Below are positions 2,812-58,394 of a stretch of DNA of 64,000 bases, one piece after another. Both the position numbers and the translations under genes were made by a program. Origin of the DNA: an uncultured Bacteroidota bacterium (lineage in GTDB: Bacteria > Bacteroidota > Rhodothermia > Rhodothermales > UBA10348). The number at the start of each line of letters is the position of its first letter. Position 1 is the stretch's first letter. Below the pieces are notes generated by a model. The model worked only from the letters and a program-made list of their open reading frames with translations. It did no database searches and was not told the origin of the DNA. The stretch covers positions 1 through 64,000 of the forward strand of contig CALFHN010000042.1 in the NCBI GenBank assembly GCA_937876355.1, read 5' to 3'.

Positions 2812-3498
2812 TTGACTACCAACAAACAAAACGGAATGCCTCGCGAGAAGCTCTATCAGCACGGGTCGTCCGTATTGTCGGATGAAGAATTGCTGGCATT
2901 GATTATTTCAACAGGTACACGCACGGATCAGCAGTCGAAATCTGCGACTGTCTTGGCAAATGAGTTATTGACGACCTTTGGTTCACTTCGGGAATTGGCT
3001 TCTCGAGACATATTGGATTACACGGGTCAAGATGGGATCGGACCAGCAAAAAGCGCTCGATTAGCGGCTTCATTTGAGCTTGGTCGCCGCCTCGCGCGGA
3101 TGCCGCGCGAGGCGGCGACCTCATTTCGATGTCCTCAAGACGTTTTCAATGAATACGGACCGATCATGAGCGACTTGAAGCGTGAGGTGTTCAAAGTGGT
3201 TCTGCTAAATACCGCTCATTGTCGAATTACAGATTTTACGGCGAGTGAGGGAGGATTGGCTTCGAGCATTGTTGAACCGCGGCTCATATTCAGACGAGCC
3301 ATTCTAGAGCATGCTGCAGCGGTAATCTGCCTCCATAATCATCCTTCTGGCAATCCTGAGCCCAGTCGCGAGGATCTTTTGATTACGAAGCAGTTGGCAG
3401 GGGCCGGGCGGTTGCTTGGTATTCCCCTGCGCGATCATATAATTGTCGCAGCCGATACCTTCACTTCTTTAGCGGAGCGAGGCCTAACCATGACGTAG
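2812..3498 (+). CDS. radC: RadC family protein (JAB/MPN domain)
   Basis: The 228-residue product has the two RadC parts: a helix-hairpin-helix-like N-terminal region (LSDEELLALIISTGT near 22-36, DGIGPAKSARL near 74-84) and a C-terminal MPN domain with the metal motif HNHPSGN starting at His175 and an Asp at 188. The family is linked to DNA repair by name but its biochemical role is unsettled. The start given is TTG at 2812; ATG at 2836 (MPREKL) is the alternative, since the conserved PREKL begins there. Codons for residues 91-103 form a perfect 39-nt palindrome at 3082-3120, listed separately. Confidence 0.92.
   Translation: MTTNKQNGMPREKLYQHGSSVLSDEELLALIISTGTRTDQQSKSATVLANELLTTFGSLRELASRDILDYTGQDGIGPAKSARLAASFELGRRLARMPREAATSFRCPQDVFNEYGPIMSDLKREVFKVVLLNTAHCRITDFTASEGGLASSIVEPRLIFRRAILEHAAAVICLHNHPSGNPEPSREDLLITKQLAGAGRLLGIPLRDHIIVAADTFTSLAERGLTMT
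3082..3120. repeat. perfect palindrome, 18-bp arms and 3-nt loop, inside radC
   Basis: The left arm GGTCGCCGCCTCGCGCGG (3082-3099) and right arm CCGCGCGAGGCGGCGACC (3103-3120) are exact reverse complements around the loop ATG (3100-3102). Pairing stops at exactly 18 bp on both sides. The element spans 13 codons in register, so each codon is the reverse complement of its mirror codon and the central Met codon is the loop. It is far more GC-rich than its surroundings. A second element with identical geometry lies in the kynureninase gene. Confidence 0.97.
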
Positions 3499-33399: not shown

Positions 33400-34505
33400 A
33401 AAAACCTCACGAAGCGCTCTATTACGGAGATTACCTGCAACTCTCTAAGCTGCTGGATTCCCAGCTTTTAAAATCGGGAGAGGACGGTCCACCTGCACAT
33501 GATGAAATGCTTTTTATAATCGTACATCAGACGTACGAATTATGGTTTAAGCAGATACTGTGGGAAATGGACGGAGTTTTTAAAGTTCTAGACGGCGCCA
33601 TTGTTGAGGAAAAAGCACTTGGAAAAGCGATTGCGCATCTCGAGCGTATTGTTTCTATTCAACGCGTTTTGACGCAGCAAATTGACGTCCTCGAAACGAT
33701 GACGCCATTGGATTTTTTAGATTTTAGAGACTATTTAGTGCCGGCATCTGGATTTCAGAGCGCTCAGTGGCGCCTAATGGAAAACAGGCTTGGGATGCGG
33801 GTTCAAGATCGTCACGCTTATACGACGAGTTCTTACACCTCAAGATTTTCGGAGTCGGATCGGGACCGAGTGGAATCCACGGAAAAAGAAATAAACTTGT
33901 TCGATCTCGTACAGTCGTGGTTAGAACGGACACCATTTATCCAATTCGGGACATTCGATTTCTGGGATGCTTATCGAGAAGCGGTAGATAGAATGCTTCA
34001 GTCCGATGAGTCTTTGATCCGGGAAAATCCAACCCTTACCAAGGACGAAATCGCGGCACAAATTGGCAATTTGAAACGAACATCCTTTCATTTTGCTGCC
34101 CTGTTTGATAAAGATCAGTATGCGGAATTGATCAAAAAAGGTGAAATGAGGATCTCTCACCGGGCGCTTCAAGCTGCATTATTGATCCATTTATATCGTG
34201 ATGAACCAATTTTACACCTTCCGTTCCGCCTATTGCAGGTTTTAGGAGATATCGACGAAAACTTTACTACGTGGCGCAGCAGGCATGCTCAGATGGTGAA
34301 ACGAATGATTGGGACCAAAATTGGGACCGGTGGAAGCTCGGGTCACGAATACCTGAGAAAAGTGGCTGAGAATAATCGGGTCTTTGGAGACATGATCAAC
34401 ATGTCGACTTTTTTCATTCCGCGCTCTGAATTGCCTGAGTTGCCGGAAGAGGTCGCCAAACAGCTTGGATTTTACTGGAGGCCTGAATCCAACTCAGGAA
34501 GTTGA
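33396..34505 (+). CDS. kynA: tryptophan 2,3-dioxygenase
   Basis: Haem enzyme that opens the indole ring of tryptophan to N-formylkynurenine, the first step of the kynurenine route. The 369-residue product has the signature HDEMLFIIVHQTYELWFKQ (35-53), with the active-site His44, and the C-terminal part with WRSRHAQMV (haem-ligand His near 300) and GTGGSSGHEYL. Its length is nearer the animal enzymes than the roughly 280-residue proteobacterial ones. It sits at the end of the mutL-tilS-hpt string by ATGA overlap, while the other pathway genes are on the opposite strand. Its last 34 bases overlap the 3' end of the monooxygenase gene. Confidence 0.96.
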   Translation: MKKPHEALYYGDYLQLSKLLDSQLLKSGEDGPPAHDEMLFIIVHQTYELWFKQILWEMDGVFKVLDGAIVEEKALGKAIAHLERIVSIQRVLTQQIDVLETMTPLDFLDFRDYLVPASGFQSAQWRLMENRLGMRVQDRHAYTTSSYTSRFSESDRDRVESTEKEINLFDLVQSWLERTPFIQFGTFDFWDAYREAVDRMLQSDESLIRENPTLTKDEIAAQIGNLKRTSFHFAALFDKDQYAELIKKGEMRISHRALQAALLIHLYRDEPILHLPFRLLQVLGDIDENFTTWRSRHAQMVKRMIGTKIGTGGSSGHEYLRKVAENNRVFGDMINMSTFFIPRSELPELPEEVAKQLGFYWRPESNSGS

Positions 34506-35842
34506 AGGACCAAGCGCTCTGCCAGGGCCCAATCTATCGCCTCAAAGTCAGAAGTGTCCTCGCAGAGTGAAAGAAGCAATTCGGATTGCTGCCGCCCTAT
34601 ATCTTGAACCATTTTATAGGGTAACAGCTCGAAAGAGACGAGCGAATAGCGGGGCTTAAACCGATTTGGGTATCGATTTTCCAATTCCAGTGCAACGCGG
34701 CGGCGAAGTCTAAAGGAATCGTCTGCCACTAGGTCTCGCATCTCGATATAATTTTCCAGCGCCATGTCGGCAATGGCGTTCGTATTTGGGTTACGAATGG
34801 CTTCAAAATCAGCCAACAGCTGTGGCCAGTCCGCGGCCAAAGACGCATCTAACATGTCAAAAAGCACCGAAACGTCTTCGAATGCACAATTCATCCCTTG
34901 CCCAAAAAATGGAACAACGGCGTGGGCAGCATCCCCAAGAATCAAGCTGTGGCCACTGCTGGTCCAGGGATCACATCTAATTGTTCCAAGACTTCCTGTG
35001 GGATTGCCGAAAAAATCGAGTTCAAGGTTTGGTAATAGTGGAACGACGTCTCCAAATTGTTCTTTGAAAAAAGAGTTTAGAGCGGACGGGTCCATTAGTT
35101 GATTAAACCCAGGATTTCCGTCTTTCGGAAGAAAAAGGGTACAGGTAAACGAATGGTCCAAGTTTGGGAGGGCAATGAGCATGTACGTACCCCTGGGCCA
35201 GATATGAAGCGCCTCGTAAGGCAAGGCGTAGTCCCCATTAGGAAGAGGTGGGATCTCCAATTCTTTATACCCATGCTCCAACATGTCACTTGAAAATCCG
35301 CTAGAATCTTCCAGTTTCAGACTCTTTCGGATAATCGATCCGGCACCATCCGCTCCAAAAAGCACGTCGTAAGAATGCTGTGACAGCGTTTTATTCGAAT
35401 CCCGAACGAAGATTATTTTTTCATTTGGCGACACTTGTTCCACAGAACTCTCAAAATGAAGCTGGATGTTGGGGTGTGAGGATGCCTCCTCAAGTAATAA
35501 ACGATTTAGCCCTGGTCGGGAAATAGAGCGAATGAATTCGTGAGGATGCCGGCTGTAGGGTTGAAAATTGGTGTCACCTTGCAGGTCGTGAATCAACCGA
35601 CCTCGCATCGGAATTGTATGATCGAGGGCTTTCTTAGACAGGCCTACTTTTTCCAACGCGTGTATCCCGCGCCTCGAAAGGGCGAGATTGATCGAGCGCC
35701 CCCCAGGAGCTGCCTTTCCCCTAAGGTCAGATCTTTTTTCAAATACAGTTACGCGGTATCCACGCTGCGCCAAACCAAGGGCTAATAATGCCCCAGCAAG
35801 ACCGCCTCCAGCAATAACCGCATGTAAAGTTGACCGTGACAC
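34472..35842 (-). CDS. kmo: kynurenine 3-monooxygenase
   Basis: FAD and NADPH-dependent hydroxylation of kynurenine to 3-hydroxykynurenine. The 456-residue product has the dinucleotide fold AGGGLAGALLALGLAQRG near 10-27, the family motif GRSINLALSRRGI near 48-60, and the second FAD motif GDAAHAVVPFFGQGMNCAFED near 295. The C terminus lacks an obvious long membrane anchor. It is the last gene of the minus-strand cluster, 43 bp after the kynureninase gene. Its 3' end overlaps kynA, which comes the other way. Confidence 0.95.
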   Translation of the reverse strand: MSRSTLHAVIAGGGLAGALLALGLAQRGYRVTVFEKRSDLRGKAAPGGRSINLALSRRGIHALEKVGLSKKALDHTIPMRGRLIHDLQGDTNFQPYSRHPHEFIRSISRPGLNRLLLEEASSHPNIQLHFESSVEQVSPNEKIIFVRDSNKTLSQHSYDVLFGADGAGSIIRKSLKLEDSSGFSSDMLEHGYKELEIPPLPNGDYALPYEALHIWPRGTYMLIALPNLDHSFTCTLFLPKDGNPGFNQLMDPSALNSFFKEQFGDVVPLLPNLELDFFGNPTGSLGTIRCDPWTSSGHSLILGDAAHAVVPFFGQGMNCAFEDVSVLFDMLDASLAADWPQLLADFEAIRNPNTNAIADMALENYIEMRDLVADDSFRLRRRVALELENRYPNRFKPRYSLVSFELLPYKMVQDIGRQQSELLLSLCEDTSDFEAIDWALAERLVLQLPELDSGLQ

Positions 35843-35885
35843 TACGTTTTTAGGGGGAAATTTGAGGTTTTTGGAAGTGGTAAGC

Positions 35886-37226
35886 CTAGATGGAGTGACG
35901 CGCAGGCTGTTTGGGGTTACTGAGTGCTTGTTTTAGATGTTGCACAAACGTGTATACATCTTCAAATGAATTGTACAAGGGGACTGGCGCGAGCCGGATT
36001 ACATCCGGCTCGCGCCAGTCACATATGATTCCTGCTTCTTCAAGCTGTTCAGGCACCTGTTTACCGCTGGAAATTCCCATTGGTTTTACGCGGATAGAAA
36101 TTTGGGCCCCGCGCCTAGATGGGTCTTGGGGCGTGATAACTTGGATGTGTTCATGACACTCGGCCATCAATAGAGCTATCCCGTAAGCCGTCAAGGAGCT
36201 CGATTTTTTGACAATGGCTCGCATTCCAACTCTCGCGAGCACGTCCAGGGAGGCATTCAGGGCCGCCATGGATAGGATAGGCGGATTACTAAGCTGCCAG
36301 CCTTGTGCGCCAGGCGTAGGTACATACGAATCTGGCATGGTAAAGCGAGACGCTGCATCATGTCCCCACCATCCAGCAAATCGCGGCAGAGAAACATCAG
36401 AGCCGTGCTTTTCATGAACAAAAATAGCGCCAGGGCCGCCAGGACCGGCATTAAGATATTTGTAAGAGCACCATGCAGCAAAATCCACATCCCAATCGTG
36501 AAGGGCCAGTTTTACATTGCCTGCTGCGTGAGCCAAATCAAAACCAACGACTGCTCCAGCCTTTCGGGCAGCGCGAACAATTCTGGGCATGTCAAATAGC
36601 TGCCCTGAGTAATAATTGACACCTCCCATCAATACCAACGCGATTTCGTCTCCCCGGGATTCAAATATGGACTCAAGTTCTGACTCGTTTAAGAGGTCTT
36701 GGTCTTTCGTACGCCCGGCAATGATCAAATCATTTTCTGGGTCAAATCCATGCCATGCCAATTGAGACCGAACAGCGTATCGGTCGGAAGGAAAAGCATG
36801 GTGTTCAATGACAATTTTGCGCCGTTTGGAGGTTGGCCTATAAAAACTAGCCATCAACAGATGAAGGTTGACCGTTAAAGAGCTCATGACCACGACCTCA
36901 GACGTCAATGCTCCAACAACGGCGGCCATAGACGCTGTTAGTCGTTCGTGATAAGGCATCCACGCTTTTTTAGCCTTGAAGTGCCCTTCAACACCATACT
37001 TTTGCCAGTCGTCCAGCACCTCAAGTACTTCACTTCTAGTGTTCTTGGGCTGTAATCCGAGCGAGTTTCCGGTTAAATAGACAACATCCTTTCCAGATTC
37101 TGTTTTGGGAATATGAAACTGAGTTCGAACTTCGCGAAGCGGGTCAGCCTCATCGAAGCGCCGTGCTCCTTCGCTCGTTAGGTCAAGGTCAGAAAAAGTA
37201 TTTTGGAGGTTAGAAGTCAATTTCAA
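35886..37226 (-). CDS. kynU: kynureninase
   Basis: PLP enzyme that cleaves 3-hydroxykynurenine (or kynurenine) to 3-hydroxyanthranilate and alanine. The 446-residue product has YLTGNSLGLQPK near 50-61, the cofactor-binding HHAFPSD, the Asp of GFDLAHAAGN, the Schiff-base lysine in CSYKYLNAGPGG, and the C-terminal signature DWREPDVIRLAPVPLYN. Codons for residues 403-415 of that signature form a perfect 39-nt palindrome (listed separately). It starts one base after the stop of the cyclase gene. Confidence 0.97.
   Translation of the reverse strand: MKLTSNLQNTFSDLDLTSEGARRFDEADPLREVRTQFHIPKTESGKDVVYLTGNSLGLQPKNTRSEVLEVLDDWQKYGVEGHFKAKKAWMPYHERLTASMAAVVGALTSEVVVMSSLTVNLHLLMASFYRPTSKRRKIVIEHHAFPSDRYAVRSQLAWHGFDPENDLIIAGRTKDQDLLNESELESIFESRGDEIALVLMGGVNYYSGQLFDMPRIVRAARKAGAVVGFDLAHAAGNVKLALHDWDVDFAAWCSYKYLNAGPGGPGAIFVHEKHGSDVSLPRFAGWWGHDAASRFTMPDSYVPTPGAQGWQLSNPPILSMAALNASLDVLARVGMRAIVKKSSSLTAYGIALLMAECHEHIQVITPQDPSRRGAQISIRVKPMGISSGKQVPEQLEEAGIICDWREPDVIRLAPVPLYNSFEDVYTFVQHLKQALSNPKQPARHSI
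35982..36020. repeat. perfect palindrome, 18-bp arms and 3-nt loop, inside kynU
   Basis: On the plus strand GACTGGCGCGAGCCGGAT (35982-35999) and ATCCGGCTCGCGCCAGTC (36003-36020) are exact reverse complements around TAC. Pairing ends at exactly 18 bp. It covers 13 codons in register (residues 403-415, central codon Val), within a segment that is conserved in kynureninases, so it is not an insertion. The geometry is the same as the radC palindrome. Confidence 0.97.
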
Positions 37227-37227
37227 G

Positions 37228-38067
37228 TTAGGCAGCTAAATTTAGTGCAGGATAAAAAACAGGCCGCGAAGGAGCGGCGTCGCTTTCAAAAGAGGGAATC
37301 TGAATAGAGACCAAACCAGGTCCATCTAACAAGTCGTTTGGGACGAATATCAGTTCGGTTATGGTGCGCTTCAAGTCAACTTGTTTCGGAGTGGCGTGTG
37401 ACCTCGATTCCAAATTCCACCAAGTGCGATGCGCAGCCATTTCACCGTTATCATGTAAACGGTCTAGGGAAGGAAGGTCCACAAGTAAATGTCTCACACC
37501 ATGTTGAATCAAATATGATATGGCCTCTATCGAAAAGAAAGGAACGTTTTCGGTGTTGTATTTGCCTTCCCGTTTCTTGGGTAAATTGGGCAGCGTTCGA
37601 ATAATTAAAGCTTCAAGCCAAGCTGGTTCCACGGTTTCCAGGCTTCGATGCAGCAACCGTTTTGTGATGCCGAAATCCGTTTTTAATAGCGCCGGACGCG
37701 AAGTTTCCCCTGCGCCCAAGAGCGTTTCCGGCGTAAGAGTTACAAGCGTGCCCTTGAGCAGGCCTACTGGTACATGGGTGTGAGCCGATATTCGGTCATG
37801 CGTAACGTGTCCCGCACATTCGGTATGTGTACCGTGACAATGGGGCGTAATAGTAATGGTTTCAACATTACATGACCCTCCTTCGCGAGTATCCCCGATC
37901 ATTCCTCCTTCTCGAAACGTTGATTTGATTGCCGCTGGAATGGCATACAGATTGGGATCTGCAGCCGAAAAGGACATTGGAATGGAAAGATCGATCCCGC
38001 CCGCCAGATCAACCTGGTAGGAATGTTCAGCAACTTGAATCTGACTCAACAAACTGGGCTGCTTCAC
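37228..38067 (-). CDS. cyclase-family kynurenine formamidase (KynB-like)
   Basis: Likely hydrolyses N-formylkynurenine to kynurenine. The 279-residue product belongs to the cyclase family by the metal-binding segment HCHGTHTECAGHVTHD near 73-88. This corresponds to HxGTHxDxPxH of KynB with Asp replaced by Glu and Pro by Gly. The N terminus (IDLSIPMSF-like: GIDLSIPMSFSAADPN) and the C-terminal HLLVDLPSLDRLHDNG also match the family. Function is assigned from family plus its place between kynureninase and ACMS decarboxylase genes. The start overlaps the stop of the upstream gene by four bases. Confidence 0.8.
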   Translation of the reverse strand: MKQPSLLSQIQVAEHSYQVDLAGGIDLSIPMSFSAADPNLYAIPAAIKSTFREGGMIGDTREGGSCNVETITITPHCHGTHTECAGHVTHDRISAHTHVPVGLLKGTLVTLTPETLLGAGETSRPALLKTDFGITKRLLHRSLETVEPAWLEALIIRTLPNLPKKREGKYNTENVPFFSIEAISYLIQHGVRHLLVDLPSLDRLHDNGEMAAHRTWWNLESRSHATPKQVDLKRTITELIFVPNDLLDGPGLVSIQIPSFESDAAPSRPVFYPALNLAA

Positions 38068-39080
38068 GGCTTTTCACTGGAAAGTCCTAACCATTCGCGC
38101 GCCGTACCTCTTAAAAGCTGCTTTTGGTGGCCAGGATGATCAAAAAAGACTGACTTTATGAGCGAACCCGGTTCCAATTCGCCAAGAGGAAATGGGTAGT
38201 CTGTGCCTAATGCAATCCGACCTGCACCGAATAAATCTACTAAAAAGCGCAATGCGGCGGGGTCATGGACTAACGAGTCGAGGTAAAAGTGGCCGCAATA
38301 ATCTCTGGGTGAGACCGGGTTATCGACGGCACATAAATCAGGTCGTACGTTAAATCCGTGCTCAAATCGGCCGACTGTGAAGGGGAACGATCCACCTCCG
38401 TGTGCGAAAGCCACACGTAATTGAGGTAAACGAGCAAAAATTCCTCCGAAAATAAAAGAACCAATAGCTCGGCTGGTTTCGGCCGGCATTCCAACCAGCC
38501 AGGGTAGCCAATATTTTTGCATCTGATCCGCTCCCATCATGTCCCACGGATGCACAAAAAGACAGGCTCCCAATTCGCTCATACGTTCGAAAAAGGGATA
38601 AAACTGTGGCTCTGATAGGTTTAATCCGTTTACGTTCGACCCAATTTGAATACCCCGAAGTCCCAATTCCAGTACACACCGTTCTAGTTCTTTAATGGCT
38701 AGGTCCGGATTTTGCAGCGGAACAGTTCCAAGCCCCTCAAACCGGGCCGGATAATTCCGAACAAGCTGTGCTATATGATCATTGAGATACCTTGACAAGT
38801 CCCAGGCATCTTCTGGTTTGGCCCAATACGAGAACATAACGGGTACCGTAGACAACACTTGAACTGCCACGCCATGGTGATCACATTCTGAAATGCGCAC
38901 TTCCGGATCCCAACAATTTGAATCGATCTCCCGAAAAAACACACCATCCTTCATCATGCGGGCGCAACACGACTTGTGATGATCGAGCGAAATAAACCCT
39001 CCATAACCGTACCGTTTGGCCAAATCTGGCCAAGTCTTTGGAAGAATATGGGTATGGATATCGTACGAACCTAAGCTCAT
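38064..39080 (-). CDS. 2-amino-3-carboxymuconate-6-semialdehyde decarboxylase (ACMSD)
   Basis: Zinc amidohydrolase-type decarboxylase that turns ACMS into 2-aminomuconate-6-semialdehyde, diverting it from quinolinate. From ATG 39080 the product is 338 residues, with the metal pair HTH in YDIHTHILP (residues 6-12), a His in LFVHPWDMMG, a His in AFAHGGGSFP and the Asp of LGTDYPFP. The ATG overlaps the stop of the dioxygenase gene as ATGA; a longer frame to 39125 is unlikely to be used. Confidence 0.94.
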   Translation of the reverse strand: MSLGSYDIHTHILPKTWPDLAKRYGYGGFISLDHHKSCCARMMKDGVFFREIDSNCWDPEVRISECDHHGVAVQVLSTVPVMFSYWAKPEDAWDLSRYLNDHIAQLVRNYPARFEGLGTVPLQNPDLAIKELERCVLELGLRGIQIGSNVNGLNLSEPQFYPFFERMSELGACLFVHPWDMMGADQMQKYWLPWLVGMPAETSRAIGSFIFGGIFARLPQLRVAFAHGGGSFPFTVGRFEHGFNVRPDLCAVDNPVSPRDYCGHFYLDSLVHDPAALRFLVDLFGAGRIALGTDYPFPLGELEPGSLIKSVFFDHPGHQKQLLRGTAREWLGLSSEKP

Positions 39081-58353: not shown

Positions 58354-58394
58354 AAAAGAGGGGCCTCCGCATTCGCGGAGGCCCCTCTTTTTTT
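58354..58394. terminator. intrinsic terminator between convergent genes
   Basis: A 17-bp perfect stem, AAAAGAGGGGCCTCCGC (58354-58370) and GCGGAGGCCCCTCTTTT (58375-58391) around ATTC, runs into further T on the plus strand and into TTTTGC on the minus strand. It serves the EF-G paralogue and probably also the BNR-propeller gene that converges on it. Confidence 0.95.

Follow-up and report, generated by a model that had tools for sequence, protein, structure and literature searches.

A perfect palindrome within kynU is one of some tens in the coding sequence of a bacterial genome, probably made and maintained by template switching

The window (the whole stretch of 64,000 nucleotides that was analyzed) carries a kynU gene in which 39 coding nucleotides form a perfect palindrome in register with the codons. 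The question raised by this locus is how a protein-coding segment came to consist of two exactly complementary arms, and whether the palindrome is a fluke or the product of a process that acts across the genome. The earlier note had described it as an 18-3-18 palindrome, and both the perfect arms and the coordinates proved exact. The features concerned are:

35982-36020, minus strand: kynU coding palindrome with perfect 18-bp arms (35982-35999 and 36003-36020) and the loop at 36000-36002, encoding DWREPDVIRLAPV
35886-37226, minus strand: kynU, encoding kynureninase (446 aa), the host of this palindrome (Pfam KYNU_C, 4.8e-26)
3082-3120, plus strand: radC coding palindrome with perfect 18-bp arms and a 3-nt loop (codon ATG), encoding GRRLARMPREAAT
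2812-3498, plus strand: radC, the host of the second palindrome (Pfam RadC, 2.3e-38)

The kynU product contains the Pfam domains KYNU_C and Aminotran_5, and the palindrome covers residues 403-415 of the 446-aa kynureninase (DWREPD-V-IRLAPV). Its two arms of 18 nt each are 100% complementary and lie 3 nt apart. The minus strand reads GAC TGG CGC GAG CCG GAT, GTA, ATC CGG CTC GCG CCA GTC, with the middle codon GTA as the loop, and third codon positions pair with the first positions of the mirrored codons. As single-stranded DNA the segment is predicted to fold into the full 18-bp hairpin (-25.5 kcal/mol, z -12.1). No intrinsic terminator (a stem followed by a T run) was called at 35982-36020, and the Rfam covariance models gave no match at E ≤ 1 within positions 34000-38500. 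The neighboring gene (34472-35842) resembles an FAD-dependent monooxygenase and, judging from position and sequence, is perhaps a kynurenine 3-monooxygenase. The radC palindrome shares the 18-3-18 geometry and is likewise predicted to form the full 18-bp hairpin as single-stranded DNA (-28.9 kcal/mol, z -9.7). A further perfect hairpin in the window (17 bp, 58354-58391) is intergenic with A/T flanks and is probably an ordinary bidirectional terminator.

The sample examined for further palindromes consisted of 1.28 Mb of the 2.91-Mb genome, taken as stretches, of which 1.10 Mb was coding according to a simple calling of open reading frames. Perfect palindromes with loops of 0-8 nt were counted and compared with 40 shuffles of synonymous codons, a control that the earlier note had proposed together with its claim of a genome-wide process. 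The shuffled null lies far below the observation and the claim holds: 29 palindromes with arms of at least 11 bp were observed in the coding sequence against 2.0 expected (maximum of 6 in 40 shuffles), 24 against 0.3 for arms of at least 12 bp, and 18 against 0.08 for arms of at least 13 bp. Four of the 29 are located in doubtful N-terminal extensions, leaving 25 after their removal. Chance acting together with codon and GC bias is ruled out as the source by the codon shuffles. In 77 diverse kynU loci of other bacteria (1.15 Mb coding) there was no excess, with 0 palindromes with arms of at least 13 bp against 0.4 expected. The palindromes are mostly perfect or absent: among stems with at least 13 matched pairs, 15 were perfect (null 0), 5 contained one mismatch (null 0.75), 6 contained two (null 2.5), and 11 contained three (null 6).

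Not all loci follow the 18-3-18 geometry: the 29 palindromes of this genome have arms of 11-19 bp and loops of 1-8 nt; the longest arm overall (20 bp) was found in kynU of a related genome, G003. A loop of 3 nt is the most common (16 of 29). The register differs between loci, and the pairing of codon positions seen in kynU (2 with 2, 3 with 1) occurs in 16 of the 29. The codon phases follow the order 2 > 1 > 3 (16:8:5), with phase 3, where the protein constraint is tightest, as the rarest. The GC content of the arms is 0.70 compared with 0.45 in chance palindromes, and the palindromes are scattered along the genes. Intergenic palindromes other than terminators are only mildly raised (90 vs. 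49 per Mb intergenic).

The hosts include kynU, radC, dprA, tgt, priA, a dnaE2-like polymerase, ruvB, rmuC, a BatD protein, and glycosyltransferases, and further hosts were identified by sequence as probable glpK, polB-like polymerase, and pheT genes. Seven of about 25 hosts resemble repair, recombination, or polymerase genes (radC, dprA, dnaE2-like, priA, polB-like, ruvB, and rmuC; loci L069, L166, L194, L197, L256, L169, and radC of the window). An enrichment of repair and recombination hosts is possible, having been seen after the fact and without a comparison of gene content. Two hosts belong to queuosine tRNA modification, tgt and a gene of the tRNA-queuosine mannosyltransferase family (L200 and L197:15891-17033), which is perhaps a coincidence.

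The genus of this genome (G000) also includes G003 and G004, and the kynU palindrome was compared with those of G003 and of G009, a member of another genus. The 39 nt are identical in G003, where the proteins share 74% identity and the arms are extended to 20 bp, and 17 of 18 pairs are kept in G009 at 64% protein identity. Residues shared between the genes use the same codon in 33-40% of cases gene-wide compared with 12/12 and 9/10 within the palindrome. Outside the clade, the same 13 residues form just 7-14 of 18 pairs, and a wider search of 79 kynureninase loci gave 18/18 in the G003 record and 7-13/18 in the other 78. The extension to 20 bp in G003 coincides with the replacement of the conserved P of APVPLYN by A. 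The palindromes are old and common to several species and two genera rather than recent events.

Short palindromes within genes could also be inserted elements, comparable to the Rickettsia palindromic elements. The chance of this explanation is negligible here, given that the alignments to relatives run through the sites without gaps, that the protein keeps its family residues there, and that different loci have unrelated sequences. The kynU and radC palindromes are neither chance nor insertions, as the earlier note had concluded for kynU. In kynU, tgt, and dprA the alignments are ungapped and the residues of both arms conserved, while gt1 and gt2 vary in sequence. The further claim that synonymous choices were brought into complementarity holds too, in agreement with the 7-14 pairs found for kynU outside the clade, with the refinement that at many loci both arms also carry non-synonymous changes.

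Both arms change together at radC, dprA, batD, and a glycosyltransferase gene (gt1), even at the cost of an amino acid. The radC palindrome displays 18/18 pairs in G002 with one compensatory pair (A>P) and 16-17/18 pairs in G003, G004, and G009, of which G004 and G009 carry additional compensatory pairs; its covariation score of 0.222 vs. 0.066 was reached by 0 of 500 shuffles. The dprA palindrome is identical in G004 although the gene-wide codon identity is 0.29, has one pair altered on both sides in G005 (T>S), and is absent in G001-G003. Two adjacent palindromes in gt1 are kept in four species with differing sequences, and seven pairs of these hairpins changed on both sides (a number reached by 0 of 500 shuffles) while the encoded residues vary (LPLLGANQ, SPLQGASR, and SPMELANQ). 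In batD a change in both arms is accompanied by a D>G replacement. Overall, the 28 orthologues in which no more than one pair is broken contain 370 unchanged pairs, 15 pairs changed on both sides, and 11 broken pairs, within flanks of 74% nucleotide identity; this subset was chosen for near-intact pairing, which makes the low number of broken pairs partly a matter of construction but leaves the double changes and the flank divergence unaffected.

Co-variation across species is also what selection for mRNA structure would give, and hairpins that slow translation, block exonucleases, or serve as processing sites, with pairing kept by compensatory selection, are the main alternative. The strong stability, the GC-rich arms, and the preference for 3-nt loops agree with such selection. 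Structural selection would fit less well with the absence of a clear G-U preference (0 of 5 single-mismatch stems carry G-U and the types are mixed in the orthologues, in small numbers), with the dominance of perfect stems without a tail of imperfect ones, and with palindromes that sit anywhere in genes and come and go between close species. The kynU site moreover gave neither an Rfam match nor a terminator call. Selected mRNA hairpins are therefore considered unlikely, though still a serious contender.

Gains and losses were mapped on a tree of nine genes. The palindromes of kynU, radC, mpe, and priA are old, whereas the dnaE2-like palindrome is limited to a subclade of G000, G003, and G002, with the G002 contigs terminating within it. 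Decay in one species was observed for glpK in G003 and for batD and the polB-like gene in G002. The tgt palindrome is present in G000, G003, and G004 and absent in G001, G005, G009, and G017. A perfect 15-bp palindrome at the same codons of tgt is found in G013 (L301), which belongs to another genus of the family and whose congener G017 lacks it; it was either gained in parallel or survives as a patchy relic. G017 and G007 of the same family contain 0 and 1 credible coding palindromes with arms of at least 12 bp, respectively, each in a sample of about 170-180 kb. Two long "coding" palindromes were seen in G007; one was rejected because its open reading frame was judged spurious by eye, and the other lies in an ABC ATPase. 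The palindrome densities in G001-G009 are biased upward because the loci were picked by the palindromes of G000.

This turnover also bears on the idea that the palindromes are DNA-level signals recognized by an architectural, recombination, or defense protein, as the repair and recombination genes among the hosts might suggest. Many copies are missing in sister species, no common motif is obvious, and the arms are free to change provided that pairing holds, which would leave only the shape to be recognized. A DNA-level signal is accordingly judged improbable.

These genomes were assembled from metagenomes and are fragmented, and contigs of G001 and G002 frequently break off within the palindromes of kynU, radC, tgt, and the dnaE2-like gene (L006, L008, L049, and L234-L237), which could point to an artefact of assembly or amplification. 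However, species that were assembled independently share a palindrome at identical codon positions, with species-specific, co-varying arms, and the contig ends at these sites indicate that palindromes are lost in assembly, not created by it; an artefact is thus very improbable. In this clade, palindromes seem to be places where short-read assemblies break. With contigs ending inside them, the true number is probably higher, and longer palindromes may have escaped assembly at such ends.

Quasipalindrome correction is expected to rise where hairpin or single-strand exonucleases are lacking. A model search of the six genomes of the genus and of G009 found no homologue of SbcD or SbcC above the cut-off or of credible length, and the two were not found in the other searched family members except G014, while SbcC- and SbcD-like genes are present in nearly all other families of the order. 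None of the six genomes of the genus yielded XseA (exonuclease VII) above the cut-off, nor did G009; XseA is likewise missing from five further genera and present in g4, g8, g10, and most other families. The loss of sbcCD that the earlier note had suggested looking for is thus seen in the genus, although it extends nearly family-wide and includes members with few or no palindromes. G007 lacks both SbcCD and exonuclease VII, and so does G013, the congener of G017 that the nuclease searches covered in its place. Since relatives without the same nucleases have few or no palindromes, nuclease loss alone is insufficient and may be permissive at most. Loss of exonuclease I was dismissed as a candidate cause because its domain (PF08411) is missing in nearly all genomes of the order and was found in just 1 of 14 controls, making the result uninformative.

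The most likely explanation, to which a probability of about 0.6 is assigned, is that the kynU palindrome belongs to a set of some tens that are made and kept perfect by replicative intramolecular template switching (quasipalindrome correction). During replication, the nascent strand of a near-palindrome in a coding sequence would fold back into a hairpin and copy its own arm instead of the template, so that the second arm becomes exactly complementary to the first. Any mutation arising later in one arm would be erased or copied across, which would keep the arms perfect and co-varying. Protein-level selection would filter these events: conserved segments such as those in kynU, tgt, and dprA would keep only events that preserve residues, which would result in the register that pairs third with first codon positions, while in loose segments events that replace residues would survive too. 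The absence of SbcCD and exonuclease VII from the clade would allow the hairpins to persist. We infer template switching as the agent and nuclease loss as a contributor; the former would explain the perfection, the double-sided changes, the arm extension in G003 kynU, the scattered positions, the turnover, and the register preference. Weighing against it are the scarcity of coding palindromes in G017 and G007, the only mild rise of intergenic ones, and the GC-rich arms, which are also expected from selection for stable structure; no switch was observed directly, and the nearest relatives (70-90% protein identity) are too distant to catch a multi-base switch in one step.

A broader and more tentative proposal, held at somewhat less than even odds, is that homogenization of hairpin arms became a standing evolutionary force on coding genes after the loss of SbcCD and exonuclease VII plus some further change. 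Self-maintaining palindromes would then hold synonymous sites fixed in different genera and bring about paired amino acid replacements. Compensatory change usually counts as proof that an RNA structure is under selection, and synonymous sites that are perfectly conserved as proof that they have a function. Both signs occur here in ordinary enzyme genes, where mutational copying appears to be the better explanation, including for replacements that could otherwise be mistaken for adaptive ones. If this is true, the clade would be a natural laboratory for the role of hairpin nucleases and template switching in genome shaping and a warning for the inference of structure from co-variation. Some of the fragmentation seen in these metagenome assemblies may likewise be due to the palindromes.

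In the literature searched, with subscription papers mostly outside it, no bacterial chromosome was reported to carry coding palindromes that are conserved and co-vary, and the known systems resemble the present one in part. Rickettsia palindromic elements and REP sequences place a related insert at many sites, whereas the sequences here are unrelated and the alignments ungapped. In E. coli, template-switch mutation at quasipalindromes is established, with fold-back synthesis perfecting imperfect repeats, which is the mechanism proposed here, and the reporters use an 18-bp repeat (PMC7202029, PMC6357072); there it is a rare mutation at engineered sites, whereas here the footprint lies in many genes and is kept across genera. 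Template switching has also been invoked for making and maintaining RNA hairpins, where it was inferred in RNA genes (PMC8794818), and for altering proteins in yeast, where it was inferred in 39 protein genes (PMC8604942). These cases share compensatory changes on both sides and amino acid replacement via arm homogenization with the present one (PMC8794818, PMC8604942), which differs in that perfect palindromes form a conserved, standing set in the protein genes of a bacterium.

The closest known case is that of the Nematomorpha, whose mitochondrial genes contain perfect coding inverted repeats of up to 284 bp and for which the authors raise conversion between arms, for example by template switching (PMC6649704). 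As in the Nematomorpha, both arms encode conserved protein, the repeats are perfect or absent, gains and losses occur between species, and phase 3 is the rarest (PMC6649704), and perfect coding repeats exceed a codon-based null here as well. The great length of the mitochondrial repeats is not reached in this bacterial chromosome, where the arms measure 11-20 bp, and the present palindromes further differ in having phase 2 as the most common and loops of mostly 3 nt, in a genome that lacks SbcCD and exonuclease VII.
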